37,100 bases of DNA from Spirochaetales bacterium (GCA_016928955.1 JAFGJV010000055.1:1-37100), one strand, 5' to 3'. Shown: positions 9,219 through 30,913, counted from the stretch's first letter. Made by a program: numbers and translations. Notes: generated by a model not told the origin, from the letters alone.

Positions 9219-9229
9219 GTGCGGGCCCC

Positions 9230-10162
9230 TTATTTGTAGGTGATGCGCGGGTCAAGGATGCCGTAAAGGACATCGACGATGAAGTTCGCGCTGATCAGGA
9301 TGAGGGAATACACGATGACGTCGCCCATGATAACCGTGTAGTCGCGGTTGAACGCAGACTGCACGAATATCTTGCCTATGCCCGGTATGTCAAAGATCCT
9401 TTCCACGACCACCGAGCCCGTCACGATGCCGGCAAAGGCCGGGCCTAGGTAGGTGACAACGGGCAGAAGGGCGCCCTTGAGCACGTGTTTGGTGATGACG
9501 ACGTTTTCCTTCAGACCTTTGGCGCGGGCCGTGCGTACATAGTCTGAGCGGATGACCTCAATGATGGAACCACGGGACATGCGCGCGATGTAGGCAAAGG
9601 GCGGCAGCATAAGCGTCATGACCGGCATCACCACTGTTGCCCAGCCCGCGCGGCTGCCTATCCAGCCTGAGGTCGGCAGCCAGTCCAGTATAAGCGCGAA
9701 CACGAGCATCAGGACCGGGCCGACCACGAACAAGGGTATGGATATACCCAACACGGCAACGGACATTGCCGCGTAGTCCTGCCATTTGTTTTGTTTCAGC
9801 GCGGATATTATGCCCACGAGCACGCCCAGAAAGGTGGCCACGGCGAGGGCCATCACGCCCAGGGTGAGCGACACGGGGAAGGTGGTGCCCAGGAGGTCGT
9901 TGACCGTCTGGTCCTTATACTTGAACGACGGTCCCAGGTCAAAGCGGAGCACATCGCCAAGGTAGCGGAAGTACTGCTGGGGAAGGGGCTCGTCCATGTG
10001 ATACTTTTTGAGCAGATTCTGAAGGATCTCCGGCGGAACCTTCTTCTCCCGGGCAAAGGGGCCACCGGGAGCCATGCGGATGAGGAAGAAGCTGAGCGTT
10101 ATGATCACGAACAAGGTCGGGATGGTGCTCAGCAGCCTGCGTACGATGAATCTGGTCATCAT
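9230..10162 (-). CDS. oppB: Oligopeptide ABC transporter permease OppB
   Basis: A 310-aa permease with six predicted membrane helices, beginning MMTRFIVRRLLSTIPTLFVIITLSF, which is typical of OppB/DppB. The FDLGPSFKYKDQTVNDLL segment and the EAA-type loop (DYVRTARAKGLKENVVITKHVLKGALLPV, about residues 205-235) are in place. First gene of the oppBCDF block. It lies 295 nt downstream of oppA, with an intrinsic terminator and a palindrome in between, so it may be transcribed both by read-through from oppA and from its own promoter. Confidence 0.95.
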   Translation of the reverse strand: MMTRFIVRRLLSTIPTLFVIITLSFFLIRMAPGGPFAREKKVPPEILQNLLKKYHMDEPLPQQYFRYLGDVLRFDLGPSFKYKDQTVNDLLGTTFPVSLTLGVMALAVATFLGVLVGIISALKQNKWQDYAAMSVAVLGISIPLFVVGPVLMLVFALILDWLPTSGWIGSRAGWATVVMPVMTLMLPPFAYIARMSRGSIIEVIRSDYVRTARAKGLKENVVITKHVLKGALLPVVTYLGPAFAGIVTGSVVVERIFDIPGIGKIFVQSAFNRDYTVIMGDVIVYSLILISANFIVDVLYGILDPRITYK

Positions 10163-10265
10163 GGCCTCGACTGAGAGGATTTCAAACCGCTGGTGGGGGA
10201 TGCGGTCCGACGCGGGCAGGTGGACCGATGCCGGTGGCAGGCGGACAACCGCGCCGCGAACTAGG

Positions 10266-10279
10266 GAAGTATATACTTC
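10266..10279. promoter_or_regulatory. Perfect 14-bp palindrome upstream of oppB (possible operator)
   Basis: GAAGTATATACTTC is a perfect palindrome about 104 nt before the oppB start. On the minus strand it contains TATACT, which could serve as a -10 element, although no good -35 lies 17 nt before it. Its size and A/T centre suit a dimeric repressor site. Function is inferred only. Confidence 0.4.
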
Positions 10280-10377
10280 TTTGTCATTTCGCGCTACTGC
10301 TAAAGGGCGCTTATCTGAAAAGTAAAATCAGTTTTTAGAAATTGAAACGACTCGGTCGACCCTTGTGGAAGCAACCC

Positions 10378-10414
10378 AAAAAGCGGGCCGCCCCGGCATA
10401 TGCCGGGGCGGCCC
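10378..10414 (-). terminator. Intrinsic terminator after oppA
   Basis: A perfect GC-rich palindrome at 10385-10414 (15-bp arms centred on CATATG) is followed on the minus strand by GC and then five U's (A-run at 10378-10382). It lies 43 nt past the oppA stop. This allows oppA to be transcribed more than the permease genes behind it. Confidence 0.85.
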
Positions 10415-10457
10415 CGATCGCGCACGAGCGGCCGGATGGCCGTCCGTTACAGGAGTC

Positions 10458-12032
10458 TTACTCCTTGGGAGCGATGTACTTCCAGGGATGCGATCCGAGA
10501 GGATTCGGATACCAGCCGTCCCACTTGGACAGGTCGATGAGGTCCTGGTTCACATAGTGGTAGAACGGGATGACATGCTGGTCGTCCGTGATCATGATGG
10601 TCTCGGCCTGGCGCAGGCTCTCCATGCGCTCGGCGCCGGACTGGGTGGCCGCGAGGCGGACCAGTTCGTCGTAGGCGGGGCTGTTGTAGAGGCCGTCGTT
10701 CAGGCCGGAGTTGGCCAGGAACATGTCAAGGAAGGTGTTGGGATCCAGGTAGTCGCCCACCCAACCGGCGCGGCAGAAGTCAAAGTCGTGCAGGTTCTGG
10801 CGGATGTCCAGGAAGGTGCCCCATTCCTTGTTATCCAGGGAGATGGTGGTGATGCCAAGGTTCTGCTTCCAGGATTCCTGGGCCCACTCGGCGATCTTCT
10901 TGTGGCCTTCATTGGTGTTGTACAGGAGGGTGGTCTCGGGGAAGCCCTTACCGTTGGGGTAGCCGGCGTCAGCCAAGAGGCGCTTGGCTTCTTCGGGGTT
11001 GAAGGGGTTGCCGTCAACCGGGGTGTAGCCGGCCATGGCCGGAACCAGGCCGTTGGCGGGGATCTGGCCGCCCTTGAGCACCTTGTCCACCAGTTCCTGC
11101 ATGTCAAGGGCCATGGTCAGGGCCTTGCGGACGCGGACGTCTTTGAAGGGCTCGCGGGTCATGTTGAAGATGTAGTAGTAGGTGGCCACCTGGGGGTTGC
11201 CCTGGTAGTCCGGGCGGAGCTTGACTTCGTCGATCAGGTCAAGGGGAACGCCGGAGGCCCAGTCGATCTCGCCGGCCTTGAACTTGTTGTACGCGGTCAG
11301 CTGATCCTCGATGGGGAGGAAGGTGATCTTGGACAATTTGACGTTCTTGGCGTCCCAGTACTTGGTGTTCTTGACCACGGTCAGGGATTCCTGGGGCTTC
11401 CACTCCTGGAGCACGAAGGCGCCGTTGCTGACCATGTTCTCGGGCTTGATCCACTCGGTGCCCTTCTCGGCGATGACGTGCATCGGGAGGATGGCAAAAG
11501 CGTAGTGGGCCATCATGTCGACGGCGTAGGGCATGGGGCCGAGCAGGTCGACCTGGAAGGTGTAGTCGTCCAGGGCGCGGATGGCCACATCGGAAGCGGC
11601 GCCACCGCCGGTGTTGTAGGCTTCGGCGCCCTTCACGACCATGTTGACCATGTAGGCATACTCAGCGGCGGTATCCGGATGCAAGGTGCGCAGCCAGCTG
11701 TCAACCACGGTCTGGGCGGTGATGGGGGTACCATCTGACCAGGTGGACTTGCGGAGCTTGAACGTGACGGTCAGGCCGTCGGCGGACGTACTCCAGCTCT
11801 CGGCCACGCCGGGAGCCGCCAAGGAGGTCTTGGGATCGTAGGTCACCAGGCCATCGAACAGCGCCATGTAGATATGGTGCTCAGGGACGCCCGAAATGTT
11901 GGACGGGTCAAGGGTGGCGGGCTCGGCGCCGTTGTTCATGATGAACTCGGCTCCCTGGGCTCCACCGCCGCAGGACACGAAGAGGCTCGTCGCCAGCGCG
12001 ATCATAAGCACTGCAGACAGAACACGTTTCAT
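10458..12032 (-). CDS. oppA: Oligopeptide-binding lipoprotein OppA
   Basis: A 524-aa extracytoplasmic solute-binding protein of the OppA/DppA family (SBP_bac_5). The N-terminus is a lipoprotein signal: MKRVLSAVLMIALATSLFVS followed by Cys21 and glycines. Family features include the start of the mature domain (NNGAEPATLDPSNISGVPEHHIY), a LTVTFKLRKSTWSDGTPITA-type block (about residues 90-110), and a C-terminal half shared with the fragment at 5346-5838. It binds peptides outside the inner membrane and delivers them to OppBCDF. Its start is fixed by an AAGGAGG ribosome site, and it has its own promoter and terminator. Confidence 0.96.
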   Translation of the reverse strand: MKRVLSAVLMIALATSLFVSCGGGAQGAEFIMNNGAEPATLDPSNISGVPEHHIYMALFDGLVTYDPKTSLAAPGVAESWSTSADGLTVTFKLRKSTWSDGTPITAQTVVDSWLRTLHPDTAAEYAYMVNMVVKGAEAYNTGGGAASDVAIRALDDYTFQVDLLGPMPYAVDMMAHYAFAILPMHVIAEKGTEWIKPENMVSNGAFVLQEWKPQESLTVVKNTKYWDAKNVKLSKITFLPIEDQLTAYNKFKAGEIDWASGVPLDLIDEVKLRPDYQGNPQVATYYYIFNMTREPFKDVRVRKALTMALDMQELVDKVLKGGQIPANGLVPAMAGYTPVDGNPFNPEEAKRLLADAGYPNGKGFPETTLLYNTNEGHKKIAEWAQESWKQNLGITTISLDNKEWGTFLDIRQNLHDFDFCRAGWVGDYLDPNTFLDMFLANSGLNDGLYNSPAYDELVRLAATQSGAERMESLRQAETIMITDDQHVIPFYHYVNQDLIDLSKWDGWYPNPLGSHPWKYIAPKE

Positions 12033-15235: not shown

Positions 15236-18200
15236 TCAGGGCGCTATCAGGTCGGTCACCGGCACCGTGCCCGACAGCTCGAAACCAAGCGTCCAGTACG
15301 CGTCGCCAGACGAGGGGAAGGCCTGGGTCAGGAAGGCCCTGCCGCCGAACGTGGCGTCCCTCCTGGTCCATTCCAGGCGCAGGTCCGCCTGGACCAGGGG
15401 ATAAAACTCGTCTGCGTCTGCGTATATGCCGCCGGCCACCCGGCCTATGAAGCCCAGGACGCCGCCTCCCGACAGGCCCGGCCAGGACAGCAGGGTAAGG
15501 GCCAGGCGCGCGTTCAGGGCCTGGTCGGGGGCGTAGTACAGGCGCGGCTCGTGGTCAAAGGCGTGCTCAAAACTGAGTTCGGCTGCGGCCAGCAGGTTGG
15601 TCCACGGCGAGTCGTCCAGGTGGAAACCCAGGGCAAGCTCGCCCAGGCCCGTGGCTATCAGCCGCGGGTCCTCGGCCAGCCCTTCCAGGATCACGTCGTC
15701 CAGGCGGCCGTACAGGCGCGCATAGCTGAAATCCATGAAGGGCAGGGTGACTGATGCGTCCGCGCTGGCCCGGTACATGAGCGGGCGGCCAGGCACCAGG
15801 GACTCGTCCATGAGGCGCAGGGACGCCCCCGCTGACAGGCTTGATCCGTCCGAGCCCAGAACCAGGCGGATGTCGGCGCGCGGGTACACGTCCCGGCCGC
15901 TCAGGGCGTCCAGGATGCCCTCGCCTGACACGGGGTAGCCGGCGCTACCGCGACGGTCGACGATGGTGGCGCCCAGCTCGGCGGCGACCTTCACGGGCGA
16001 GGACGGCAAGCCAAGGCGCAAACGGGCGCCGGCGTCCATCCAGGAAGCCGAGGACGGGTCCTCGGTAACGGTGACCGTGCCTCCCATGCCGTCGTCCACC
16101 AGGAAGCTGCGCGCGGTATAGCGTCGCACGTCCCTGCCGCTCAGGGCCAGGGTAAGCTCGAGCGAGCTGGCAAGCCCGAGCGACCAGGACGAGCCCGCGT
16201 CGAACACCGATACCAGAGGATCCACGTACCCGGTGGCCGTGGCGGCCAGGCTGTCCGCGTTGGACCGCGCCAGCGCGTTGTGGAAACCCTGGACATTGGC
16301 GTAGGAAGGATCCAGCTCGTACACGCGGCGGTACAGGCGCATGGCCTCCACCCAGTCGCCCGCGCGTTGCCGCAGGTTGGCCAGGGCGAACACGGCGGCC
16401 GCGTCGCCAGGGTCGCTTTGAAGCGCGGTCCGGAACTGGGCAGACGCCCGCTCAAGCCGCCCGTCCGCCAGATGGAAGGAGCCAAGCTCCCGCCGGAGGC
16501 TGACCAGGTCCCGCTCGACCTCGCGGAAGAGCCGCTGGTCGCGAGCGTCGCCAAGAGCCAGAGCGTCCCTGGCCAGGACGTCAAGGCTCTTTATGGTTGA
16601 CGGCAGGGCCTCAAGCAGGGCGTCAATGGCGGCAAGGGCTAGAGGGGCCCCGGAAAAGGCGCTGGCGCCGGACGGGAGCCCCTCGGATGCGGGGCGCAGG
16701 ACGCCGGCAAGCAGGCGCATACCTTCGCTGCCGCCCGGGGCCAAGGCGTCCGCCAGGGATAGCGCTTCCTGGCGTCGGTCCAGCGCGAGTGCCGCCTTTA
16801 AGGCGCCAAAACGCAAGGACGGCGAATCCGGCTGGGCCAGGGCCGCGTAGGCCAGCCCCAGCTCGGTCCTGGAAGGAACCGGGCCGGGCAGGCGCGTCCG
16901 TACGAACCAGGCCACGGGATCGCCGGCTTTGAGGGCGGAGGCCAGGTCGTCCAGCCACACCTGCCTGTCCAGGGTCCAGCCGGACGCAGAGCGTTCCAGC
17001 TCAAAGGCGTCCGCCAAGGGCTTGTCCGCCTGCCTGAGCTGGTCCAGGGTCAGGGCCAGGGCCGCCGCCCTGTCTGCCAGGGCCTGATCCCAGCGCAGGG
17101 CGGCCGTTTCTGCGACCAGGGCGTCGTCCATGGCCTGGGCGCTCCGTTCGGCTTCTACTTTCAGCTCTTCCCGGTCAGGTTCCTTGGCCAGGCGGGCCGC
17201 TGCGGCCTCAGCAGCGTCAACGGCGGCTTTGAGGCGGCGTCCGCGTTCGGGCAGCTGTTGCCTGGCGTCATCGGCCCACAGCCTGAGGGCCATAAGCTCG
17301 GCCTGGAAGTCGGCAAGATCGGGCGACGCTCTATCCGCGGCGGCTATCACGTCATAGGCCCGGGCGGCAAGGAGGCCCTCAAAGGCGGCTATGGCCTCGG
17401 CACGGCGGCCGTGCCAGAACAAGGCTTGCACGCGGAGGTTCCTGAGGCCTATGTCGTCCGGCCGGGCGGCCGCGTCCGCGGCCAACGTATCAAGATAGGC
17501 GCGCGGCGCCTTGATGACGGCTTCCTCCCGGCTGGCGTAGTCCAGGTAGTCCGCGCCTGGCTCGTAGTCTTTCCGGGCCTTGGACAGTACGGCGTCCGCC
17601 CCTGCCTGGTCGCCGGAGCGTTCCAGCGCCGCTGCCAGGGCGTAGCGGAGGGCGGCCTGGGCGGGATGGGCCTTGACGGCGGCGGCAAGCAGGGCGGCTG
17701 CCCGGTCGGGGTAGCCCGAAACCACAAAGGACGCGGCCAGGTCCAGGGCCCGCCGGGGCTCGGCAAGAGCAAGGCGCTCGGCTTCCTTAAGGACGCGCTC
17801 GCCCTGGTCGCCCTGCCCGGACCATATCAGGGCAAGCCCGTAGTCCACGGTCAGGGTGGGGTCATCGGGGAAAAAGGCCAAAGCGGTCCGGTACAGGGCT
17901 ATGGACCGGGCGTAGTCGCTTCTCCACGCTGCCGTCTTTGCTGCCTCCTGCCAGCCGGCAAGGTTGTCCGGATCCAGGGCCAGGCCGCGTTCCCAGGCCA
18001 TGAGGCCGCCGGTCACGTCGTCCAGGCCCAGGCGGGCGCGGGCAAGGGCCTTCAAAAAGCGCGCCGAGTCCGGAAACAGGTCGGACGCGCGCTGGGCGTG
18101 GCGCGCCGCCGACGAATAGTCGCCCAGGGCAAAGGCCGTCTCCAGGAGGGCCGCGTGGGCGTCGCGGTCGCCGGGATTGGCACGGATCAGGCGCTCGTAC

Positions 18201-18832
18201 TCGCTTTCCGCAAGGGGAACGGCCACTGGCGAGCCTACCGCCCCCCGTGGCTGCGGGGACGCGCCCAGCACGGTCCTGATGGCGGCGACGGCGTCCAGCT
18301 CGAAGTAGAACCGGCCGTCCGCCCTCCTCTTGTCGCGGATCTCCAACCTGAGGATGTGCGGGCCTTGGGTGAGCGTGGCCGTGGTGATGGCCGCCCAGCG
18401 CCGGTTGGGCTCGTCGCCGGAGGCATGCACCTGGGAACCTTCCCAGGTCAGGAGGAAGGGCGCGCCGCCGTCAAGGCTGGCCCACACGGGGGCGTAGTAG
18501 CCGGGAACGTCCGTCCTGGACGAAGCGGGCGGGCTGCCCGCGTACCAGAGGGTGTATTCGCCCGCCGCCGGCACCTGAAGGTACAGTTCCGCAAAGTAGT
18601 CGGCGCCGCCATAGGCTTTGTCCGACGCGTCCAGCACCAGGGCCCTGTTGCCGGACGCCCTGTAACGTATGACAGGCTCGCGGGCAAAATTGGTGGCCAG
18701 GGCGTTCTCGCCCTCCGCGTACACCGACGTGGATTCGGGGTAGGGCAGTTCAGCGGCTATGCCGGCCTGGGCCTGGGCCCGGCCGGACACCATGCCGAAC
18801 AGCACGAGGGCAACAAGGAAACTCTGGCGCAT
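15236..18832 (-). CDS. PelB-like outer-membrane exporter: sugar-binding-like domain, TPRs, C-terminal beta-barrel
   Basis: A 1198-aa protein; the ATG at 18830-18832 follows AGGAG and opens a signal peptide cut after A-Q-A (about residue 23). Residues ~30-200 look like a galactose-binding/CBM fold (VYAEGEN at the start, AGEYTLWYAGS, ILRLEIRDK.ADGRFYFELDAV). About 15 helical repeats follow, several clear TPRs (e.g. LFPDSARFLKALARARLGLDD), with an Ala-rich coiled region in the middle (~580-680). The last ~320 residues alternate short amphipathic strands and turns, as in an outer-membrane barrel. Length and order match PelB of the Pel exopolysaccharide system (about 1190 aa, TPRs then barrel), and pelDEFG-like genes lie divergently next door. 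The N-terminal sugar-binding-like domain is not a feature I know from classical PelB. Confidence 0.8.
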   Translation of the reverse strand: MRQSFLVALVLFGMVSGRAQAQAGIAAELPYPESTSVYAEGENALATNFAREPVIRYRASGNRALVLDASDKAYGGADYFAELYLQVPAAGEYTLWYAGSPPASSRTDVPGYYAPVWASLDGGAPFLLTWEGSQVHASGDEPNRRWAAITTATLTQGPHILRLEIRDKRRADGRFYFELDAVAAIRTVLGASPQPRGAVGSPVAVPLAESEYERLIRANPGDRDAHAALLETAFALGDYSSAARHAQRASDLFPDSARFLKALARARLGLDDVTGGLMAWERGLALDPDNLAGWQEAAKTAAWRSDYARSIALYRTALAFFPDDPTLTVDYGLALIWSGQGDQGERVLKEAERLALAEPRRALDLAASFVVSGYPDRAAALLAAAVKAHPAQAALRYALAAALERSGDQAGADAVLSKARKDYEPGADYLDYASREEAVIKAPRAYLDTLAADAAARPDDIGLRNLRVQALFWHGRRAEAIAAFEGLLAARAYDVIAAADRASPDLADFQAELMALRLWADDARQQLPERGRRLKAAVDAAEAAAARLAKEPDREELKVEAERSAQAMDDALVAETAALRWDQALADRAAALALTLDQLRQADKPLADAFELERSASGWTLDRQVWLDDLASALKAGDPVAWFVRTRLPGPVPSRTELGLAYAALAQPDSPSLRFGALKAALALDRRQEALSLADALAPGGSEGMRLLAGVLRPASEGLPSGASAFSGAPLALAAIDALLEALPSTIKSLDVLARDALALGDARDQRLFREVERDLVSLRRELGSFHLADGRLERASAQFRTALQSDPGDAAAVFALANLRQRAGDWVEAMRLYRRVYELDPSYANVQGFHNALARSNADSLAATATGYVDPLVSVFDAGSSWSLGLASSLELTLALSGRDVRRYTARSFLVDDGMGGTVTVTEDPSSASWMDAGARLRLGLPSSPVKVAAELGATIVDRRGSAGYPVSGEGILDALSGRDVYPRADIRLVLGSDGSSLSAGASLRLMDESLVPGRPLMYRASADASVTLPFMDFSYARLYGRLDDVILEGLAEDPRLIATGLGELALGFHLDDSPWTNLLAAAELSFEHAFDHEPRLYYAPDQALNARLALTLLSWPGLSGGGVLGFIGRVAGGIYADADEFYPLVQADLRLEWTRRDATFGGRAFLTQAFPSSGDAYWTLGFELSGTVPVTDLIAP

Positions 18833-18884
18833 GGCTTGCTCCTGGCTTGCTGGCTCCGGCCCCGAGGAACGCGGGCCGGGTCCT

Positions 18885-18933
18885 AAAAAAACATCCTGGG
18901 CTCTTTCAAAAGTCGGACGAGTTTTGAAAGAGC
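18885..18933 (-). promoter_or_regulatory. Stem-loop plus U-run in the pelB-like leader (possible attenuator)
   Basis: A perfect 12-bp inverted repeat (GCTCTTTCAAAA 18900-18911 with 18922-18933, ten-base loop) is followed on the minus strand, after 8 nt, by seven U's (A-run at 18885-18891), about 50 nt before the pelB-like ATG. It could stop or slow transcription before the gene. The 8-nt gap is longer than in standard terminators. Confidence 0.45.
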
Positions 18934-19146
18934 TACATAGTGAGACGCGATGTGCGTGGCGATTGCGAAACATGCAAACAACCGCGAGCAATCGCAAAGC
19001 CAATTTCAGAAGCAACAGACTTTTATAGGTCCCCTTTTGAAATCGGCTCACCTGTTAGAAAAATCATCAATTTCCGACAAAAACGCAAGGCAATTCGGAA
19101 CGGGCCCGCCGGCAGCGTCCAGACGACTATGGGCAAAGACCGGCCC

Positions 19147-19184
19147 GTATATGCCGATATACCTAACAGGATGCTGGCATCCTG
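19147..19184 (+). promoter_or_regulatory. Two inverted repeats in the pelD leader
   Basis: GTATAT/ATATAC (19147-19152, 19157-19162) is followed by a perfect 8-bp hairpin (CAGGATGC/GCATCCTG, 19167-19174 with 19177-19184, two-base loop). The hairpin sits just before the ribosome-site region of pelD. It could be an operator or influence translation of the GTG-started gene. Confidence 0.4.
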
Positions 19185-19205
19185 CAAGGGAGCAAGGCGG
19201 GTCGG

Positions 19206-20591
19206 GTGGGTGTTCGCAGGCTGAAAAACCGTATCGTTCCTCTGGAAATGCTGGCGGTGCTGGCGGCCTTGGTGGCGTGGAATGTCCTGTCTGGCGACCA
19301 ACCAGGCTTTCCGCGCCTGGCCTTTGTGCCGTACTGGCTGCCGGCAGTGGTGTTCGCGTCGTTTTACGGCCCGGTGGCCGGTCTTGCCGCGCTGGCCCTG
19401 GGCGTGGGGGCCCTGCCCGTGGCCGCGGCGTTCATGCCCGGCAGCCGGGTGCCCTGGGCCGAGTTGGCCGGGCCCCAGTCCGCCCTGGTCCTTCTGGCCG
19501 TGGGAGCCATAGGCTTTGGGCGTTCCGGGTCCAAGGCAGCCATCGCGTCGCTCCGCGCGCGCTACCGCGAGCTGTACAAAAAAGGCGTACGCCTGTCCAA
19601 AACCCTGGACGCCCTGCGCGTGGTCAACGGCTACTACGAACGGGAGCTCCTGTCCGCCAGGGATTCCCTGCCCCTGATCCACGAGCACCTGCGTTCCCTG
19701 GATACGCGCTCGGTTGAGGGTGTGGCCGGGGGCATACTGACCCTGCTGGAACGCTTTGCCGGCGTGCGCTCTGCCGCCCTGTACCGGGCGGATTCCGCGG
19801 ACGGAACGCTGCAGCTGGTGCTTGGCGCGGGCGACGGCCAGGCCCCCGCTCAGCGGCCGCTGGAGGGTTGCGTGGAAGGCTGGGTTCACCGCAATGGCTC
19901 GCGTTTTACCATACGGCAGGTGCTGGACGACCCGTACCTGGCGTCCATGGATGACGGCGGCGTGATCATGGCCTTTCCCCTGGCCCCGTCCGGGGAGCCC
20001 TGGGGCGTGCTGACCGTGCGCGACTTGCCCTTTGTGGCCTATACCGAGAGCACCGAACGGGCCATAGAGGCCATGCTCGAGCTGGCCAGGCCCTATCTGG
20101 ACCGGGCCGTGCGCTACGAGCGCCTGACCAAGGACGCCGAATTCGACCAAGGCGCCGGCGTGCCGTCCTACGCCCAGTTCATGGCCATGGTGGACGAGGC
20201 CTTTGGGCGCGGTACCGGCTCCCCGTTCTCCGTGGTAATATGCCAGATCGACAACCTTGCGGCCATCGTCGCGGAAGCCGGACCGGACTCGGGGCGGCGC
20301 ATAGCGGACGCCGTGTCCAGGGCCTTCAGCGCGTCTGCCGACACCCCGATGATGGCCTGCCAGTACAAGCGCGGCGACCAGCTGGGCCTGTTTGTGGGCG
20401 GTCTGGACGAGGACGGGGTGTCCCGCCTGAGCCTGGAAGCCCTGGGCACCCTGCAGATGTCGCCCCCGGACATAGGCGGACAGGCACGGCGCCTGGATCT
20501 GCGCGTGGGCTTTGCGTCCAGGAGGAGAGCGGACGCGGGCGTGGACGAGATCATAGGCAGGGCCGAGCTCCTGATAGAATTGCAGGGCTGA
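19206..20591 (+). CDS. pelD: PelD-like inner-membrane regulator (TM helices, GAF, degenerate GGDEF)
   Basis: A 461-aa protein, close to the 455 aa of Pseudomonas PelD. Three to four membrane helices (residues ~12-30, 40-80, 88-106) are followed by a short coiled coil, a GAF domain (~160-320; VEGVAGGILTLLERFAGVRSAALY, VIMAFPLAPSGEPWGVLTVRD) and a degenerate GGDEF domain (~325-461; FSVVICQIDN, then YKRGDQLGLF at 387-396 in place of R.GGDEF). Classical PelD binds c-di-GMP through an RxxD site shortly before the GGDEF remnant and thereby switches on Pel synthesis. Here that position reads T380-P-M-M383, so the site appears absent. The start is an assumed GTG with a weak ribosome site. First gene of pelD-pelE-pelF-pelG. 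Confidence 0.82.
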   Translation: MGVRRLKNRIVPLEMLAVLAALVAWNVLSGDQPGFPRLAFVPYWLPAVVFASFYGPVAGLAALALGVGALPVAAAFMPGSRVPWAELAGPQSALVLLAVGAIGFGRSGSKAAIASLRARYRELYKKGVRLSKTLDALRVVNGYYERELLSARDSLPLIHEHLRSLDTRSVEGVAGGILTLLERFAGVRSAALYRADSADGTLQLVLGAGDGQAPAQRPLEGCVEGWVHRNGSRFTIRQVLDDPYLASMDDGGVIMAFPLAPSGEPWGVLTVRDLPFVAYTESTERAIEAMLELARPYLDRAVRYERLTKDAEFDQGAGVPSYAQFMAMVDEAFGRGTGSPFSVVICQIDNLAAIVAEAGPDSGRRIADAVSRAFSASADTPMMACQYKRGDQLGLFVGGLDEDGVSRLSLEALGTLQMSPPDIGGQARRLDLRVGFASRRRADAGVDEIIGRAELLIELQG

Positions 20592-20592
20592 C

Positions 20593-21327
20593 ATGGGAGA
20601 ATGGCGACGCGCTCCCGACGGCTACGAACGTTTCAGGAACCCGGGCGTGTACCGGACGGCCCGCACCCCGGACGCTGCCATCCACGGCATGCTGGCCGGG
20701 TCCTTGGACGCGGCCGCCCTGTACGAGGCCGCCGGCAGGGTGAAGCCCCTGGTGTCCGAACCCCAGGATCCCGCCGACCTGGACCGGGCCCTGGCGCGGT
20801 GGAAACCGCTGGCCGAGGGCGGCTTGGCCCTGGGCGAGGCGTTCCGAGCCCGGCTCCATTCCCGGGACCAGGAAAGCGCCCTCCACGCCGCCGAGAGCCT
20901 GTCCATTATGGAAGTACGTCACGCGCGTGCCATAGAGTCAGCCCGCAAGAAAGGCGACAGCTACCTGGTGGCCAGACTGTACGCCGAGCTGGCCGAGCTG
21001 GCCGGCAAGGGCTCTCTCAGGGCTTTTTACTACCGGGAGGCGTTCCGTGCCCTTGAGGAACTGGCGCGCGCCGGAGCCCTCAAACGCAAACACGTCAGCC
21101 TGGCCCTGTCCATCCACCTGGCCCTGGGCAGGCTCAGGGAGGCATCCGCCCTTCTGGACCGCGTCCTTCTGGCCCGCCCGGACGATCCCGAATTCCTGGA
21201 GCTTCTAGCTGATCTCCGTTTCAGGCTGCGCGACTACGCGGGCCTCCGCTGGGCCGTGCGCCGCCTACAGGCCACGGGGCACCTGGGCATGGGCCCCTTT
21301 GCCGCCGCGTCGTCAAGGTGGCTGTGA
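20593..21327 (+). CDS. PelE-like helical repeat protein
   Basis: A 244-aa protein starting two bases after the pelD stop and overlapping the next start (TGATG), so tightly coupled. It has no clear membrane helix. The C-terminal half is made of TPR-like helix pairs (SYLVARLYAELAELAGKGSLRAFYYREAF; HVSLALSIHLALGRLREASALLDRVLLARPDDPEFLELLADL). In classical Pel operons the gene between pelD and pelF is pelE, a TPR protein of about 330 aa with two N-terminal membrane helices. This one would be a shorter soluble version. The assignment rests mainly on position and the TPR character. Confidence 0.65.
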   Translation: MGEWRRAPDGYERFRNPGVYRTARTPDAAIHGMLAGSLDAAALYEAAGRVKPLVSEPQDPADLDRALARWKPLAEGGLALGEAFRARLHSRDQESALHAAESLSIMEVRHARAIESARKKGDSYLVARLYAELAELAGKGSLRAFYYREAFRALEELARAGALKRKHVSLALSIHLALGRLREASALLDRVLLARPDDPEFLELLADLRFRLRDYAGLRWAVRRLQATGHLGMGPFAAASSRWL

Positions 21328-22730
21328 TGGGCGCGGCGGGGGCCAGGCGCGTGTGCGTCATATCCGAGGGTTCCTATCCGTACATCACCGGGGGCGTCAG
21401 TTCCTGGGTGCATGACCTCATAGGCAATCTGGGCGACTATCACTACGCCGTGTTCAGTTTGTCGCCCGAGGCCGGGCAGACGCCCCGGTATACCTTCCCG
21501 GCCAACGTGGTCGAGCATCGGGACGCGGTCATATCGCGGGCGCCCAGGGGCGGCGGCGGTACGGCGGCCAAGGCGGCCGTTGCCTTTCTGCGTTTCCTGA
21601 ACTCGGGCCAGGGCGAGGCCGTGGACAGCTTTGGCTGCCTGGTCCGCGCCCTGGACGAACGGCCGGTGGGCATGGACGAGCTGTTGTCCGACCAGCGGCT
21701 GTGGAAATTCGTGTGCGCGTCGCACCAGACCCTGAATCCCCTGTATCCCTTCAGCGATTTTTTCTGGGCCTGGAAGGCCGTATACAGCATGATGCTGGCC
21801 GCCATCACGGCGCCCCCGCCCGCGGCCGACCTGTACCAGTGCCTGTCCACGGGTTTTGCCGGCCTGGCGGGGCTCGCGGCCAAGGTGCGCACAGGGTCGC
21901 CCCTCCTCTTGTCCGAGCACGGTCTCTACCATAAAGAGCGCGAGATGGAGATACGCAAGGCCGACTTTGTGCGCGGCTACCAGCGCGACCTGTGGATAGA
22001 CGCGTACGCCCGTTTTGCCAGGCTGTGCTACGCGGGGGCAGACGCCCTCACGTCGCTCTTTGAGACCAACAGGCGGGAACAGCTCGCCCTGGGAGGCCGC
22101 GCCGACCGGGCCCTGGTCACGCCCAACGGCATAGACATCCAGCGTTTCAGCGTGGAGCGCCAGGAGCATGAGGGTTTTGCCGTGGGCCTGGTGGGCAGGG
22201 TAGTGCCCATCAAGGACGTGAAGACCTTCATAGCGGCCGCCCGCATCATAGCGGACGCCGATAGCCGGGCCCGCTTCTACTGCATTGGGCCCACCGACGA
22301 GGACCAGGCATACTACGACGAGTGCGTGAAGCTACGCGACAGCCTTGGCCTGGCCGACACGCTGGAATTTACCGGTCCCGCCGACGTACGCGCGTGGTAC
22401 GCCCGCCTGGATCTCCTCATGTTGACCAGCGTGCGCGAGGCCCAGCCGCTGGTCATCCTAGAGGCATACGCGGCGGGCGTGCCCGTGGTGTCCACGGCCG
22501 TGGGCAACGTGCCCGAGCTCCTGGACTACGACAGCCGCTTTCTGGCCAGTCCTCGGGATCCCGAGGCCCTGGCCGCTGGAGCCCTGTACGCTGCTGCCCA
22601 TCCGCAGGACATGGCCGCCGTGATAGACGCCAACAAGCGCCGCGTGCGCGCCCATTACGACAAGCGCGGCCTGCACGAGCGTTACCGGACCATATACGCT
22701 TCCCTCCTGGAGGGCGCATGGCGGGCATAG
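21327..22730 (+). CDS. pelF: PelF-like glycosyltransferase (GT4 family)
   Basis: A 467-aa cytoplasmic GT-B glycosyltransferase. The N-terminal domain opens with RRVCVISEGSYPYITGGVSSWVHDLI, the typical start of PelF, which polymerises the Pel sugar chain from UDP-activated sugars. The C-terminal domain has NGIDIQRF, VGLVGRVVPIKDVKTFI and the catalytic E-x7-E (E371 and E379 in REAQPLVILEAYAAGVPVV). I used the ATG at 21327, which overlaps the previous stop; in-frame GTGs at 21318 and 21324 are alternatives. The 3' end overlaps pelG by 13 nt. Confidence 0.88.
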   Translation: MGAAGARRVCVISEGSYPYITGGVSSWVHDLIGNLGDYHYAVFSLSPEAGQTPRYTFPANVVEHRDAVISRAPRGGGGTAAKAAVAFLRFLNSGQGEAVDSFGCLVRALDERPVGMDELLSDQRLWKFVCASHQTLNPLYPFSDFFWAWKAVYSMMLAAITAPPPAADLYQCLSTGFAGLAGLAAKVRTGSPLLLSEHGLYHKEREMEIRKADFVRGYQRDLWIDAYARFARLCYAGADALTSLFETNRREQLALGGRADRALVTPNGIDIQRFSVERQEHEGFAVGLVGRVVPIKDVKTFIAAARIIADADSRARFYCIGPTDEDQAYYDECVKLRDSLGLADTLEFTGPADVRAWYARLDLLMLTSVREAQPLVILEAYAAGVPVVSTAVGNVPELLDYDSRFLASPRDPEALAAGALYAAAHPQDMAAVIDANKRRVRAHYDKRGLHERYRTIYASLLEGAWRA

Positions 22731-24079
22731 GCTTCACGCTCAAGCGGGTCATATCCCGGGGAGACCTCACGTCCTTCACCGCCGGCAGCCTGTCCGGCGT
22801 GCTGGTTGTGGCCGGCCCGTCCCTCTTGTCCATGGCGACCATATGGCTGGTGATGGGGCCTTTGGGAGCGGCCAGGCCGGAGGCGGCCGCGCCCTTTACC
22901 GCCCTGCTCATATACACCTTGGCCCTGTCCACCATCCTCTCGGGCGGCATACAGTACTCGTTCACGCGTTTTGTTGCGGACCGCATCCACGAGCGGGCCG
23001 AGCCGGTGGCCGTGGGCGCCCTGCTCAGGCTCCTTGCCTGGCTGGCCCCCTCAGCATGCGCCGCCGGCGCGCTGTTTTCCTTAATTGGCCGGGTGTTGCC
23101 CGGGAACCAGGCCCTGGCCGCCGCCGTGTCCGGCCTTCTGTCCGGGGCAGTCACCTGCATGTGGGTGCTGGTGCTGTTCTCAAGCCTTCTCCACAAGCAC
23201 GCTCGCATCCTGCTCGTGTACGGCTTAGGCATGGCCGCCGCGGCCGGCCTTTCCTGGCTTGGCAGGGATATGGGGCCGGCCGGGCTGGCCCTGGGCTTTG
23301 GGCTTGGGTACCTGGTCCTGTGCGCGGGCCTCCTGATCCTGATCCTGGCAGAGTTCAAGCCACAAGCTCCGCCCCGGGGTTCGGCCGTTGTGGCCATGGC
23401 CAGGCGCTATCCCGCCCTGTGCGCCTACGGCTTTACGTACTACGCGGCAACCTGGGCAGACAAATTCGCGGCCTGGCTGGTCTTGGGCGACGCTCCCCTG
23501 GGCACCAGACTGCTTCTCCACCAACCGACCGATTCCGTGGCCTATCTGGCCGGCCTCACTATCGTTCCCGGCCTGGCGTTTTTTGTCATAGCCAGCGAGA
23601 CCTCGTACTTTGCCGCGCTCAGGCGTTTCCTCAAGGCCCTGTCCGGCAGGCCGTACCTCGATATACAGCGCACGCTCGCCGATCTTGCGGCCAGGGGGCG
23701 GGAAGCCCTGGCCGCTCTGGCCCTTTTCCAGGCCCTGGTAACGGCCGCCGCCCTCCTTGCCGCCCCCGCCCTGGCCCTGGAGCCGGGCCGCATGCGCGGC
23801 TTTGCCGTTTATACCCTGGGCGCTTTTTTCCAGCTCATGGCCGTGGCCGCCCAGAATTTCCTCTTTTACGTGGAGGCGTACGGAAAGGCCCTCTCTGGCG
23901 CCGCCGTGTTTCTGGTGGTCAACGCGGCGCTCAGCACGGCCCTGGCCCTGGCGGCCCCCGGCCTGGGACCTGGCTGGGGCTTTCTGGCCGGGGCGTTGGC
24001 GTCTGCCGTGCTGTCCCTGTTCCTGGCCCTGCGTTCGTTGCGCTGTCTGGACAGGCTGTTGTATACTTCCAGCAACTGA
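22718..24079 (+). CDS. pelG: PelG-like 12-TM membrane protein (Wzx/MOP type)
   Basis: A 453-aa, very hydrophobic protein with about 12 membrane helices; Pseudomonas PelG has 456. The start MAGIGFTLKRVISRGDLTSF is typical of PelG, and GGSLSGVLVVAGPSLLSMATIW-like helices follow. PelG belongs to the flippase-like MOP superfamily and forms the inner-membrane channel with PelD, PelE and PelF. The ATG at 22718 follows GGAGGG and lies inside the end of pelF, so translation is coupled. The next gene begins 67 nt downstream. Confidence 0.88.
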   Translation: MAGIGFTLKRVISRGDLTSFTAGSLSGVLVVAGPSLLSMATIWLVMGPLGAARPEAAAPFTALLIYTLALSTILSGGIQYSFTRFVADRIHERAEPVAVGALLRLLAWLAPSACAAGALFSLIGRVLPGNQALAAAVSGLLSGAVTCMWVLVLFSSLLHKHARILLVYGLGMAAAAGLSWLGRDMGPAGLALGFGLGYLVLCAGLLILILAEFKPQAPPRGSAVVAMARRYPALCAYGFTYYAATWADKFAAWLVLGDAPLGTRLLLHQPTDSVAYLAGLTIVPGLAFFVIASETSYFAALRRFLKALSGRPYLDIQRTLADLAARGREALAALALFQALVTAAALLAAPALALEPGRMRGFAVYTLGAFFQLMAVAAQNFLFYVEAYGKALSGAAVFLVVNAALSTALALAAPGLGPGWGFLAGALASAVLSLFLALRSLRCLDRLLYTSSN

Positions 24080-24146: not shown

Positions 24147-25013
24147 GTGAGCATGCAGGACCCCGTCAGCCTGGTGTCGTCCGTACCCGTACTGCCGGCC
24201 GCCGCCTTCAAGGCGCTCGAGCTTTTGGACCCTGACTCCAAGGCCAGCTTCAAGGACCTGGAAGACGCGGTCAAGCTGGACTCTGCGCTGACCGCCCGCT
24301 TTCTCCGCGTGGCCAACTCGGCCATGTACGCGCGGCGCGGCAAGGTGGAAAGCCTGGGTACAGCCATATCGCTCTTGGGCTTTTCCATGGCGCGGAACCT
24401 GGTGCTCCTGGTGGCCACCTCGTCCAGCTTTGACCCGGAATCATCGGACCCCTTCTTTCCCGGTTTCTGGCGTGCCACCCTCAGGGCGGCGTTCTACGCC
24501 AGGTACCTGGCCGACGAGCTGTCCGCAAAGGACCAGGCGGACAGGGCCTTTACCGCCGGCATACTCCACTACATGGGCCTGGTTGGTTTACATCGGGCGG
24601 ACGGAACGGCCTTGGCCGGCGCCCTTGCCCAGGCCGGTGAGGACCTGGAACGGCTCCTTGCCCTGGAAACCCAGACCTTTGGTACCGACCACCGGGCCGT
24701 GGGCGCCGCTTTGCTGGCTTCCTGGGGCCTACCAGAGCCCTACGTGGACGTGGCCGCCGAGTACGGGTCGGCCCGGGTGACGTCCAGGCACAAGCGCCTG
24801 ATCCTCCTCTTCTCCCTGGCCGAGGCCCTGGCCAGGCGCTCGTCCCTGGAGCCCCTGCCGCCTGAGTGCGCCGAGCTTGCCCGCGCCATGGACGTGGACG
24901 CGGCGCGCCTGCCTGTCTTAAAGGAAACCCTGGAAGCCCGCTTGGGACTGGATCCCTTTGCCGGCGAGTGCGGTCTCATGCTGTGCGCCGGAGCCAGGCT
25001 GGTCAGCGCCTGA
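24147..25013 (+). CDS. HDOD-domain protein
   Basis: A 288-aa protein made largely of one HDOD domain. It shows LPAAAFKALELLDPDSKASFKDLEDAVKLDSALTARFLRVANSAMY and SLGTAISLLGFSMARNLVLLV in the canonical order, then GILHYMGLVGLH where an active HD protein would have a metal-binding HD. HDOD proteins lack the catalytic residues and act as regulators in signalling, often linked to c-di-GMP, motility or biofilm. The start is GTG 24147 (AGGAG 5 nt upstream) or ATG 24153 (11 nt). It lies 67 nt after pelG on the same strand with no clear terminator between, so it is probably in the pel operon. Confidence 0.85.
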   Translation: MSMQDPVSLVSSVPVLPAAAFKALELLDPDSKASFKDLEDAVKLDSALTARFLRVANSAMYARRGKVESLGTAISLLGFSMARNLVLLVATSSSFDPESSDPFFPGFWRATLRAAFYARYLADELSAKDQADRAFTAGILHYMGLVGLHRADGTALAGALAQAGEDLERLLALETQTFGTDHRAVGAALLASWGLPEPYVDVAAEYGSARVTSRHKRLILLFSLAEALARRSSLEPLPPECAELARAMDVDAARLPVLKETLEARLGLDPFAGECGLMLCAGARLVSA

Positions 25014-25104: not shown

Positions 25105-25202
25105 CATGATCGGAATACCTTCTGTATGTCACCCCAGTTGTCGTTGATGTCCCGGGCCGCATGGTCGGCGCCAGGAAATTCGCCCGAGCGCGAGGTGGGA
25201 TG

Positions 25203-26678
25203 ATGAAGAAGAACCTGTTTTTTGGCGTGCTGGCCCTGATCGGTCTGGCGCTTGCCGGCTGTTCGGCCAGTCCCGTGGTGGATCTGGAGCAGGCGGCTGT
25301 CCAGCTCGAGCCCCTGGGCTCCATGGTGTCCGTGGCCCGCGCCGCCGGCCATGTGGTGGACGCCAGCGGCTACGAGGCCAGTTCCAAGGCCGTCAATCCC
25401 GGCGACGCCTATTTTGACTCAACCGAAATAAATGACCGGACTCCAGCCCAGGTATGGGCTCTACGAACGGACGGCACGGTGCGCCGCTATCCTACAGCAG
25501 GCTACTATGAAGACTACTACAACGTCGGCGAGGAAGCGTACTTCACCCTGGAAGTGGCCACAGACTCGCTGGGCGCTCCCATCAGCGGCTGGTATCTGGT
25601 CAAGGTGTACGTGTATCCCCGCTACAGCCTGCTGGTGAGCTACGTGTATGAAGAGTATTACGTGCAGGCCGATGACGCTACCTGGGCTTATTATTCCGAT
25701 ACGAGCTCTAGCCCGGGGTACGCCCTGCTCCAGACCTACATGAAATCCGGTCAGGTATTCACCAAGACGGTAAACGCCACCGGCGTGGCTAGCTACACGG
25801 GCACGGACGCGTTCAGCCTAGATCCCCTGGTCGATCCGCCTGCCTACGCATACAGCGCGACTCCCGGCGCCCCGGGCACGGACACCGGGCTTTTCTACGT
25901 GGACGCGTACTCGGTAACGCCCAACGGCCGCGCCTACGTGCGGGAATTCTACTCGGAGACGGATTCAGTCGTTCCCGGGCAACCTGACAGCTCGGGCGTC
26001 ATGTACGTATACGACCGCTACCTCGGCAACAAGGAAAAGACCGAGGTAACCCGCTACAAGAAGCTGGGCGACGAGCGTACCATACGCTCGTTCTATACCG
26101 ACGACAGGCATAAAAGCGGCCTGTACACGGGCGTCGTGGCCACCAACATAGACACGGTATCCGGAGCTCCCATCGTCATAGAAGAGTTCTCCGACTACTG
26201 GCCGGGCACAAGCGGCCAGAGCTACGATACCGCGTCCGGTACCTATATCAAGCTGACGGAGACAAGCGTCGGTTCCAACGCTTATTCAGGCACCCTGGTG
26301 GACTACTGGCCGGGCGGGGCATACGTGTACAGCGCGGATATCAGCGCCGACGGCACGGCAAGCTACTCGGGCGGCGTGTACGACGGAGCCTGGACCAGGA
26401 CCGGCGTGGCCGGCTGGCCGGATACCTTCAACGCCCGCTCCCTGAGCCCCCGGGCGGCCCTGGCGGACCAAAGCCTGGACCTTGCGGCCCTGGGCGGCTT
26501 CTCGCTGGTGCTGCCGTCTGGCGCCCGGTTCCACGGCGCGTTTGAGGGCGGCGTGTTCTCGGGCACCTTCACCGACCTCAACGGAGCCACGGCGACCGTG
26601 GTGGTAGACAGCTTTGGCGTCGCGGTCGGCGACGACTTCCAGCCCTGGCCCCGCCTTCAGGAAGCGCTCCTTCCCTGA
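25203..26678 (+). CDS. Lipoprotein of unknown function, 491 aa
   Basis: The ATG at 25203 follows GAGG at 7 nt spacing and opens a lipoprotein signal, MKKNLFFGVLALIGLALAG then Cys20. The mature protein is rich in Tyr, Ser, Thr, Gly and Asp and appears all-beta. It has many short strands with Y-x-Y patterns, two DYWPG words (near residues 340 and 370) and a C-terminal GARFHGAFEGGVFSGTF stretch resembling a MORN-type hairpin repeat. It is probably exposed on the outer or inner membrane. I recognise no family. It is a single-gene unit with its own promoter and double terminator, lying between the pel and lysine operons. Confidence 0.85.
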   Translation: MKKNLFFGVLALIGLALAGCSASPVVDLEQAAVQLEPLGSMVSVARAAGHVVDASGYEASSKAVNPGDAYFDSTEINDRTPAQVWALRTDGTVRRYPTAGYYEDYYNVGEEAYFTLEVATDSLGAPISGWYLVKVYVYPRYSLLVSYVYEEYYVQADDATWAYYSDTSSSPGYALLQTYMKSGQVFTKTVNATGVASYTGTDAFSLDPLVDPPAYAYSATPGAPGTDTGLFYVDAYSVTPNGRAYVREFYSETDSVVPGQPDSSGVMYVYDRYLGNKEKTEVTRYKKLGDERTIRSFYTDDRHKSGLYTGVVATNIDTVSGAPIVIEEFSDYWPGTSGQSYDTASGTYIKLTETSVGSNAYSGTLVDYWPGGAYVYSADISADGTASYSGGVYDGAWTRTGVAGWPDTFNARSLSPRAALADQSLDLAALGGFSLVLPSGARFHGAFEGGVFSGTFTDLNGATATVVVDSFGVAVGDDFQPWPRLQEALLP

Positions 26679-27920: not shown

Positions 27921-28298
27921 GGCGTTTCCGCCCAAGGCGGGAGCGACCAGGTAAAAATTCAAGGCGCGCGCAGCAACGCGAACACGTTGGCCACGCGCAC
28001 CCGGCCAGGAAGCACGGCAAGCCGGTCCGCGATGAGCGCGGTCAGCCGGCGGGGGCAGTCCGACTTCCGGCTGCGAAGGGTCGTCCGTCGGCCGTTCGCG
28101 GCGGCGACCGGGCGTATGTAATGTGAGAAGACGGGTAACCGTCTCTCGCCCCGGGGGCTCCCCGTCCCCGGCGCGGCGAGCGAGCGCCATCCGGCAATCC
28201 GGACCAGACGCGCGCAAGCCGGAAGCGGTGGAGGCCGGACGGGTTCCGGCGGGATGGACGAGACCATCCGTCACCATGCGTTTTCAAGGAAGCACACT
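27921..28298. other. Long structured spacer between kdd and the aminotransferase gene
   Basis: No plus-strand gene fits these 378 nt. They are very GC-rich and full of short inverted repeats. Examples are CCGCG/CGCGG near 28026-28040, CAGCCGG/CCGGCTG near 28042-28073, AGACGG-GTAA-CCGTCT near 28128-28143 (a GNRA-type loop) and GCCGGA/TCCGGC near 28233-28250. The minus strand has an open 102-codon frame (27959-28267), Arg/Pro-rich and without ribosome-site support, which I do not call. It may be an inserted element or a structured RNA inside the operon transcript. Its last bases carry the AAGGA site of the next gene. Confidence 0.5.
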
Positions 28299-29573
28299 AT
28301 GGCGAGAGAGTATCCCAAGCTCAAGCTGGACAAATCCATGTCCATGTTCGAGGAGGCCCAGCGCCTGTCCCCCGGCGGCGTGATGGGCATACGCAGACCC
28401 TACAACTTCATCCAGGGCGAGTACCCCATCTTTATCGATCGGGGTTACGGCGGGCACATCGTCGACGTGGACGGCAACGACTACATAGACATGCTCTGCG
28501 CCTACGGCCCGGTGATCCTGGGCTACGACGAGAAGGAAATCAACGACGCGGTCAAGCACCAGATGGACCACAACGGCTTCTGTTTCAGCCTGGTCCAGCC
28601 GGCGCAGAACGAGCTTGAGCGCGCCGTCATCGATATGGTGCCCTGCGCCGAGCAGGTCATACCCGTCAAGACCGGTTCGGACGCCACCACCCTGGCCGTC
28701 CGCATCGCGCGCGGCTACACCGACCGCTCCGTGATCCTGCGCTGCGGCTACCACGGCTGGCACGACTGGTGCGTGGAGAACCACGGCGGCGTGCCCGAGG
28801 AGACCCTGGCCCTGACCGACGAGTTCGAGTACGGCGACCTTGCCGACCTGGAGCGCAAGCTGGACGCGCACAAGGGCAAGGTTGCCTGCGTGATCATCAC
28901 GCCGGTGGGCCATCCCCTGGCCAAGCCCGTCCAGGCGCCGCCGCCCGGTTACCTGGAAGGCGTCCGCGACCTGGCCCACAAGCACGGCGCCGTGCTCATC
29001 TTTGACGAGATACGGACCGGCTTCCGCGCCGCCCTGGGCGGAGCGCAGGAACGCTACGGCGTGACGCCGGACCTGGGCACCTTCGGCAAGGCCATGGCCA
29101 ACGGCTACCCCATATCCTGCGTGGCTGGCAAGCGCGAGATCATGTCCGTGTGCGAGAAGAAGGTGTTCGTGAGCTCGACCTTTTTCCCCAACAGCCTGGA
29201 AATGGTCGCCGCCATCAAGTGCATGGAGATACTCAAGCGCGAGGACGTACCCAACAAGATATGGGAGCGCGGCACCCGCTTCCTGGCCGGCATCCAGAAG
29301 GCCGTGGACGACACGGGCTCGCCGATAACGGTATCCGGCATTCCGCCCATGCCCTTCTTCACCTTTGACCAGGCGCCCGGCGACCCTGACAAGACGTATA
29401 AGGCCCGCCGCGAGTATTTCTACACGCAGACCATACGCCGCGGCCTTTTCATCCAGCCCTTCCACCACTGGTACATAGCGTACCGGCACACGGAAGCCGA
29501 CCTGGCCAAGGCCCTGTCCGCCATCCGGGAAAGCCTGGAACTGATGATGGACAAGTACCCGGTGAAGAGGTAA
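28299..29573 (+). CDS. Class III (GSA-type) PLP-dependent aminotransferase of the lysine operon
   Basis: A 424-aa PLP enzyme of fold type I, subgroup III. The ATG at 28299 follows AAGGA. Visible features are RLSPGGVMGIRRP at the start and GSDATTLAVRIARGYT for the phosphate-binding region. D236 in LIFDEIRTGFR holds the pyridine nitrogen, and K264 in TFGKAMANGYP is the Schiff-base lysine. It resembles glutamate-1-semialdehyde aminomutase, but the setting between kdd and kce points to amino-acid catabolism rather than haem synthesis. The classical lysine pathway has no transaminase. Possible substrates are beta-lysine, 3,5-diaminohexanoate, 5-amino-3-oxohexanoate or a later amino acid such as 3-aminobutyrate; none is shown. 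Confidence 0.88.
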   Translation: MAREYPKLKLDKSMSMFEEAQRLSPGGVMGIRRPYNFIQGEYPIFIDRGYGGHIVDVDGNDYIDMLCAYGPVILGYDEKEINDAVKHQMDHNGFCFSLVQPAQNELERAVIDMVPCAEQVIPVKTGSDATTLAVRIARGYTDRSVILRCGYHGWHDWCVENHGGVPEETLALTDEFEYGDLADLERKLDAHKGKVACVIITPVGHPLAKPVQAPPPGYLEGVRDLAHKHGAVLIFDEIRTGFRAALGGAQERYGVTPDLGTFGKAMANGYPISCVAGKREIMSVCEKKVFVSSTFFPNSLEMVAAIKCMEILKREDVPNKIWERGTRFLAGIQKAVDDTGSPITVSGIPPMPFFTFDQAPGDPDKTYKARREYFYTQTIRRGLFIQPFHHWYIAYRHTEADLAKALSAIRESLELMMDKYPVKR

Positions 29574-29584
29574 TACGGAAAGCG

Positions 29585-29854
29585 AACCACGGAGGCACGG
29601 AGAAGAGGATGTAGGGTGGAGACAAGGGAGCGGGATCCATGAACCAAGGATATCATCGCGAGCGCGATAGAGGTGCGCCGTGAACTTGGTCCGGGTTTGC
29701 TTGAGAGCATATGCGATGACGATAGAATTGGATGCGCTGGGCTTGCGCTACCAGAGGCGGGTTCGCTTGCCGGTCATCTACAAAGGCAGGGCGTTGCCCT
29801 GTGTATTCCGCGTTGTAGCCCTTGTTTTTTCTGCGACTCTGTGCCTCGGCGGTT
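29585..29854. mobile_element. Small element bounded by inverted repeats, carrying a broken GxxExxY gene
   Basis: The spacer between the aminotransferase gene and kce starts with an 18-nt sequence AACCACGGAGGCACGGAG (29585-29602). It ends with an inverted, 15/18-matching copy (29837-29854). Between them lies the remnant of a GxxExxY protein gene (separate entry). The bounded structure suggests a small inserted unit. A related inverted-repeat spacer lies upstream of kamA at 30736-30913. No target-site duplication could be recognised. Confidence 0.6.
29643..29787 (+). pseudogene. Remnant of a GxxExxY-family gene
   Basis: One frame reads TKDIIASAIEVRRELGPGLLESI, the signature start of GxxExxY proteins (the family-naming G..E segment). 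The frame then breaks near 29710. A second frame continues the family pattern with IELDALGLRYQRRVRLPVIYKG (29720-29787). After that the similarity stops, so the last two-thirds of the usual ~125-aa protein are missing. The remnant therefore has at least one frameshift and a large 3' deletion. The family's role is unknown. Confidence 0.8.
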
Positions 29855-29891
29855 AGCCTATTCGTTTGTATCGTTGATAACTGGAGGTATC

Positions 29892-30719: not shown

Positions 30720-30735
30720 CCGATCGATGAAGGCC

Positions 30736-30913
30736 AACCACAGAGACGCAGAGGCACGGTGCGATCCGAGCTGGCGCAGGATCGCAGGGTCCGGGGCGCG
30801 GGTACTCCCGCGAATCCCCGGAGAGGGGGTAGCGGAGAAGCGTTGCGCATCGCGCAACCTTCGAAGCGAGGGGGAGACCTCCCCCTCATTCCCTACACGA
30901 GACTCTGCGGTGG
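30736..30913. repeat. Second inverted-repeat-bounded spacer, before kamA
   Basis: The 214-nt gap between kce and kamA has AACCACAGAGACGCAGAGGCAC at its left (30736-30757) and CTCTGCGGTGG at its right (about 30903-30913), an inverted partial copy. It holds no gene, but the interior forms hairpins such as GTTGCG/CGCAAC and GGGGG/CCCCC (about 30842-30884). It resembles the ends of the element at 29585-29854 and may be a non-coding relative of it. The ribosome site of kamA lies just after it. Confidence 0.55.

Follow-up and report, generated by a model that had tools for sequence, protein, structure and literature searches.

A probable Pel-type exopolysaccharide locus with reduced gene content and a divergent exporter in a Spirochaetota genome

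Loci for the exopolysaccharide Pel have been surveyed in Proteobacteria, Bacilli, Clostridia, Thermotogae, Actinobacteria and others, and rearrangements of pelA and pelB are known among them (PMC7112194). Work on Pseudomonas has led to the conclusions that export depends on deacetylation by PelA, that the system cannot do without the PelC ring and that cyclic di-GMP (c-di-GMP) is sensed by PelD through an RxxD motif. The published PelB structure forms a 16-strand barrel similar to those of BcsC and PgaA (PMC12141448). The DNA described here, from a Spirochaetales bacterium (GCA_016928955.1, JAFGJV010000055.1:1-37100) and hereafter called the window, makes up one entire contig (C14, 37,100 bp) in a Spirochaetota assembly of 2.87 Mb with 59 contigs and an estimated completeness of 99.5%. 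It carries pelD, pelE, pelF and pelG homologues and a divergently transcribed PelB-like gene; homologues of pelA and pelC were found neither on the contig nor elsewhere in the assembly. Taken jointly, these features are best explained, with a probability of roughly 70%, by a reduced and rewired locus for a synthase-dependent exopolysaccharide of the Pel type. No publication on Pel in Spirochaetota was found in the literature searched, which excludes most subscription journals. The features of the locus, annotated by profile, fold and context, are the following (TPR, tetratricopeptide repeat; TM, transmembrane):

15236..18832, minus strand: PelB-like exporter, 1198 aa, with TPR matches in Pfam, an AlphaFold2 model, a barrel fold and conservation in Spirochaetota
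18833..19205, no strand: divergent intergenic region between the pelB-like gene and pelD, about 373 bp, without Rfam match
19206..20591, plus strand: PelD, with TM segments, GAF domain and degenerate GGDEF domain, the canonical RxxD I-site being absent
20593..21327, plus strand: PelE-like TPR protein, 244 aa, without predicted TM helix
21318..22730, plus strand: PelF, GT4 glycosyltransferase (NF038011, 308.8 bits; DUF3492, E 2.8e-62)
22709..24079, plus strand: PelG, polysaccharide transporter (PF16933, 252.7 bits, E 9.2e-75)
24153..25013, plus strand: HDOD-domain protein, candidate regulator (PF08668, E 1.9e-42), recurrent at Spirochaetota pel loci
25161..26678, plus strand: putative lipoprotein downstream of pelG, with homologous genes at a few further pel loci of the phylum; tentative member of the locus

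The plus-strand genes follow the order D-E-F-G between 19206 and 24079, with a gap of one nucleotide between pelD and pelE and overlaps between pelE and pelF and between pelF and pelG, an operon-like arrangement; the classical order and tight spacing of the original prediction are thus found in the open reading frames. PelF exceeds the cut-off of the NCBIfam equivalog NF038011 (308.8 against 100 bits, E 7.8e-92) and PelG that of Pfam PF16933 (252.7 against 29 bits), PelG being the single match, hence the only copy, in the genome. The proposed set of Pel-type core genes with a divergent PelB-like exporter in a spirochaete is confirmed. The closest relative of PelF (72% identity) belongs to a metagenome-assembled genome (MAG) labelled Spirochaetes bacterium RA.bin94, the next (70%) to a Spirochaetota MAG, and the PelF relatives of Spirochaetota are about 35% identical to proteobacterial PelF. 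The nearest relatives place the host in Spirochaetota, in agreement with the original suspicion. PelD displays the layout of TM segments, GAF and degenerate GGDEF domain, with three hydrophobic segments, a GAF match and a weak GGDEF match below cut-off. The profile comparison originally suggested for PelD and PelG is clear for PelG, far above its cut-off; PF16963 (PelD_GGDEF) left the window PelD unmatched, but missed the controls in the same search as well and is therefore uninformative. PelE is a TPR protein according to Pfam and lacks TM helices in a simple hydropathy test. With 244 aa it is shorter than three proteobacterial references (326-362 aa, one to three TM helices), the one detail that departs from the original description.

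A PelF-based search of named genomes recovered 75 loci, about 68 of them in Spirochaetota. In the synteny comparison originally called for, dozens of Spirochaetota genomes show the same genes in the same arrangement, so that the locus is no chance assemblage. One MAG that carries it is named Gracilinema caldarium (L071). Among loci with enough flanking sequence, the divergent layout without a gene for DUF2194, the PelA type of the phylum, is commonest (21 loci), followed by a collinear DEFG-B-DUF2194 order (8) and a divergent layout with DUF2194 (3); deep-branching loci are divergent, and there DUF2194 adjoins a longer pelB. The suggestion that a spirochaete host extends the range of Pel architecture stands with respect to the phylum, no description of which turned up in the literature searched, but the architecture is common in Spirochaetota and not peculiar to this genome. 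Some deep-branching Spirochaetota (L140, L141, L144) possess a second pelFG pair, near the full locus or apart from it.

The lack of pelA and pelC, noted for the surroundings of the locus, extends in profile searches to the whole genome (G000). No match was obtained there to DUF2194 (PF09960), to GH114/166 (PF03537, the GH114 profile, whose match in reference loci spans the hydrolase domain of PelA) or to the classical-PelA profile, while the reference loci were matched by PF03537 (down to 9.7e-81) and by the classical-PelA profile A12 (down to 2.5e-293). The PelC profile (A7) has no match in the genome at E 0.05, with references at 1e-73 or better, though a much diverged PelC could escape it; PelC was seen at no Spirochaetota locus scanned, and a few genomes contain weak PelC-profile matches elsewhere (E 7e-10 or weaker).

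Of the 393 genomes sampled from the phylum, 23 encode a PelG above cut-off. DUF2194-type PelA is missing genome-wide from 10 of the 11 PelG-bearing genomes of the window's class, among them one assembled as a single contig (G412), whereas 11 of the 12 in other classes have it; PelA was therefore probably lost. PelA-bearing relatives carry the DUF2194 gene next to pelB, and the corresponding place is fully covered in the window. Their DUF2194 proteins are homologous to PelA and retain DD and HxxxH motifs, read directly in the sequences; alignment to classical PelA put these motifs out of place. Both motifs would be expected in a metal-dependent enzyme that deacetylates, as known from carbohydrate esterase family 4. 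Parsimony places three changes of PelA presence on the PelF tree, a quick tree with several open forks. The ancestral Spirochaetota locus was probably divergent with a PelA homologue beside pelB, from which most of the class would then have lost PelA, with a rearrangement of the locus in one clade.

The lipoprotein after pelG (25161-26678; L025:11578-13041) shows distant kinship (hhalign probability 93%) to LamG-bearing lipoproteins, which are encoded at the corresponding position in many relatives without PelA. The LamG-bearing type was considered as a replacement of PelA, as it never co-occurs with DUF2194 at the scored loci, and was rejected: independent pairs are too few, and a relative of the window lipoprotein is present at a PelA-bearing locus (L107). 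In deep-branching Spirochaetota loci, pelD and pelB flank a gene (L139:11600-12709; L142:943-2064) whose product combines TPRs and an S-layer-homology domain and is possibly a functional counterpart of PelC.

The longest reading frame of the exporter comprises 1271 aa (open to a GTG at 19051); with initiation at the ATG at 18832 the protein has 1198 aa, including a signal peptide. Its AlphaFold2 model, built on 13 homologues (mean pLDDT 81.5, pTM 0.68), contains a signal-peptide region, a beta-sandwich (about 36-202), a TPR/helical scaffold (209-857) and 16 barrel strands (860-1192), i.e. the predicted combination of scaffold and 16-strand barrel expected of PelB, on the minus strand at 15236-18832 and divergent from pelDEFG as originally described. 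The barrel resembles PgaA (4y25; VIA-align Z 24.6, root-mean-square deviation 2.7, 278 aligned residues), BcsC (6tzk; Z 22.6) and PelB (9h80; Z 21.6); no significant match came from HMMER searches of PDB sequences with the barrel and N-terminal profiles, which leaves the fold comparison as the informative one. A better alignment to an unrelated exporter such as BcsC, along with PelD and PelG profiles that fail to match, had been named as an outcome that would overturn the Pel assignment. The comparison answers this only in part: the fold is common to PgaA, BcsC and PelB and does not separate them, but linkage to PelDEFG is conserved, in some relatives together with linkage to a PelA homologue, and this marks the protein as the Pel exporter. 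The invariant Y1099 of the exporter was set beside the conserved Tyr-1103 of PelB (PMC12141448) by position only, and no claim is drawn from it.

A separate model of the N-terminal domain (pLDDT 77) matches carbohydrate-binding modules (CBMs) in fold: CBM6 (2cdp_B, Z 11.7), GH26-CBM35 (3zm8, Z 12.5) and many CBM35 structures (Z 10.9-11.6). Cry toxin domains score equally, so that the match denotes a fold class, and the Pfam CBM_6 profile hits two of 13 exporter homologues (best E 0.024) and not the window protein; the claim is therefore one of a CBM6/35-like fold and not of sugar binding. A profile of the domain matches every Spirochaetota homologue above 1000 aa whose N-terminus lies in the available stretch, the most distant scoring 130-137, and none of the classical PelB proteins searched.

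The I-site of PelD in P. aeruginosa reads RGLD. Aligned PelD sequences have RxxD in 10 of 10 non-spirochaete proteins, P. aeruginosa included, versus none of 65 distinct proteins from Spirochaetota; the window PelD has DTPM or SADT at this position, depending on the alignment. About 20 other GGDEF domains are encoded in the genome, which suggests that c-di-GMP is probably made. As PelD lacks the canonical I-site, its control would have to run via another site or another protein. Of the 37 loci flanked by 1.5 kb or more of sequence on each side, 26 have an HDOD gene next to them, and we hypothesize that its product is the best candidate for a replacement sensor. Rfam detected no riboswitch, its sole match being one tRNA in another locus.

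By analogy with Pseudomonas and Bacillus, PelF would polymerise an N-acetylgalactosamine-type sugar nucleotide, and PelD, PelE and PelG would carry the chain through the inner membrane. The secreted PelB-like protein may then take the periplasmic chain via its TPR scaffold and 16-strand barrel to the cell surface, with the CBM6/35-like domain, judging from its modelled fold, probably binding the emerging chain. The chain would bypass a PelC ring of the known type and, because no PelA was found in the genome, processing by PelA. Either the polymer stays acetylated and needs neither PelA nor PelC, or other proteins substitute for them; as originally suggested, the polymer may not be deacetylated.

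Several points weigh against a Pel locus of this kind. P. aeruginosa requires each of its seven pel genes. Its extracellular Pel depends on the deacetylase activity of PelA (PMC10269871), and PelC is likewise described as essential there (PMC12141448). A profile of PelD did not retrieve P. aeruginosa PelD from the PDB sequences, and the exporter profile detected no homology to classical PelB, represented by only three reference sequences, so that the PelB assignment draws on fold and conserved neighbourhood. The barrel of the window protein is strongly anionic (net -17, counting all residues and not the lumen), which would suit a cationic polymer. A gap between the 59 contigs could hide a gene, and the known proteins could be replaced here by a deacetylase with a different fold or by a PelC that shares no sequence similarity with them.

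The rival explanation that survives best, unlikely as it is in absolute terms, holds that the product is an ordinary, partly deacetylated Pel: an unrecognised deacetylase encoded elsewhere in the genome, either the 851-aa PF01522 protein or one of another fold, would replace PelA, and a non-homologous lipoprotein would replace PelC. The anionic barrel is as expected for a cationic chain, the genome encodes one polysaccharide deacetylase, and the putative lipoprotein that follows pelG has relatives at other pel loci. The PF01522 protein, the sole deacetylase of this kind in the genome, has homologues in 91 of 119 relatives, however, many of them without PelG and equally commonly so; it is thus not Pel-specific and was rejected as a likely substitute for PelA. 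Furthermore, PelA-minus loci have no linked enzyme gene, and the net charge covers all residues of the barrel and not its lumen. Barrel charge was also tried as an indicator of polymer charge (mean -16.1 for PelA-bearing versus -9.8 for PelA-minus, p 0.008), and was set aside because relatedness was uncorrected, all residues were counted and one PelA-bearing outlier reached +25.

Export by spirochaetes of a fully acetylated, uncharged Pel-type polymer through an outer membrane without PelA and PelC, with a carbohydrate-binding domain of the exporter capturing the chain and control by the neighbouring HDOD protein since PelD lost c-di-GMP binding, is in its full form rather doubtful; this neutral-polymer reading is kept below even odds because the strongly anionic barrel leans to a cationic polymer. 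Slightly more doubtful is a different, non-Pel polysaccharide made by a Pel-derived core, for which deacetylation and PelC would be irrelevant. The low identity of PelF to its proteobacterial counterparts, a PelD without I-site, a PelE without predicted TM helices and an exporter with an added CBM-like domain would fit such a product, but the PelF score lies over 200 bits above the cut-off of the equivalog NF038011, and the same genes are paired with a PelA homologue at related spirochaete loci.

A split locus, as which the arrangement would simply have counted had a pelA/pelC pair turned up elsewhere, is very improbable, since genome-wide profile searches found neither gene while their positive controls matched. 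The number of contigs, and window ends that are both contig ends, leave room for genes in assembly gaps; against this stand the estimated completeness, the missing DUF2194 in nearly all PelG-bearing genomes of the class, one of them a single contig, and the full coverage of the region beside pelB where PelA-bearing relatives carry the gene. Least probable of all is an exporter of BcsC or PgaA type that has nothing to do with the Pel genes: PgaA and BcsC precede PelB among the barrel matches, but their family profiles score far below cut-off (PgaA 30.9 against 366.65 bits, BcsC 15.2 against 858) and in TPR regions only, no cellulose or poly-N-acetylglucosamine (PNAG) synthase gene was seen among the window proteins, and the neighbourhood of pelB-like gene and pelDEFG is kept throughout Spirochaetota in several arrangements.

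Other genes of the contig comprise an oligopeptide-type ABC transporter operon on the minus strand (6115-12032; two ATPases, two permeases, a binding protein) and a probable lysine-fermentation cluster (28254-36354) with a class III aminotransferase, a BKACE enzyme, lysine 2,3-aminomutase, a MutS_V-domain protein and the alpha subunit of D-lysine 5,6-aminomutase.

Read as a reduced Pel-type locus, the window suggests that this lineage, which has an outer membrane to cross, runs the same synthesis core as Pseudomonas without PelA, PelC and RxxD. It extends Pel to a phylum without a description in the literature searched, and offers natural material for asking what purpose PelC and deacetylation serve and by what means Pel is regulated after loss of the I-site.

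Compared with pelABCDEFG of P. aeruginosa, and with the Pseudoalteromonas and Caballeronia loci, the locus shares PelF and PelG sequence, PelD layout, a TPR-type PelE, an exporter combining TPRs and a 16-strand barrel, and the D-E-F-G order. It differs in that no PelA or PelC was found, PelD lacks RxxD and PelE lacks predicted TM helices; its divergent exporter, with signal peptide and CBM6/35-like domain, has no detectable sequence similarity to classical PelB. The Gram-positive pelDEA(DA)FG locus of Bacillus cereus (PMC7112168) has a reduced D-E-F-G core without PelC in common with it, but Gram-positive loci keep a deacetylase gene, in B. cereus also the c-di-GMP-binding I-site, and have no outer-membrane exporter. 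In streptococci PelD has lost its entire GGDEF domain; the window PelD retains the domain and lacks only the site. PgaA and BcsC (PNAG and cellulose, respectively) share TPRs and a 16-strand barrel with the window exporter and need no PelC-like ring (PMC12141448), but have other synthase partners, and their family profiles stay far below cut-off here. An Azospirillum-type locus (L020), in which pelA is split (GH114 and DUF2194), contains a GNA1162-like pelC along with two TPR genes. Unlike the window it has PelC and an intact RxxD, and no CBM-like domain was found on its exporter; its DUF2194 type of PelA is that of the PelA-bearing Spirochaetota.

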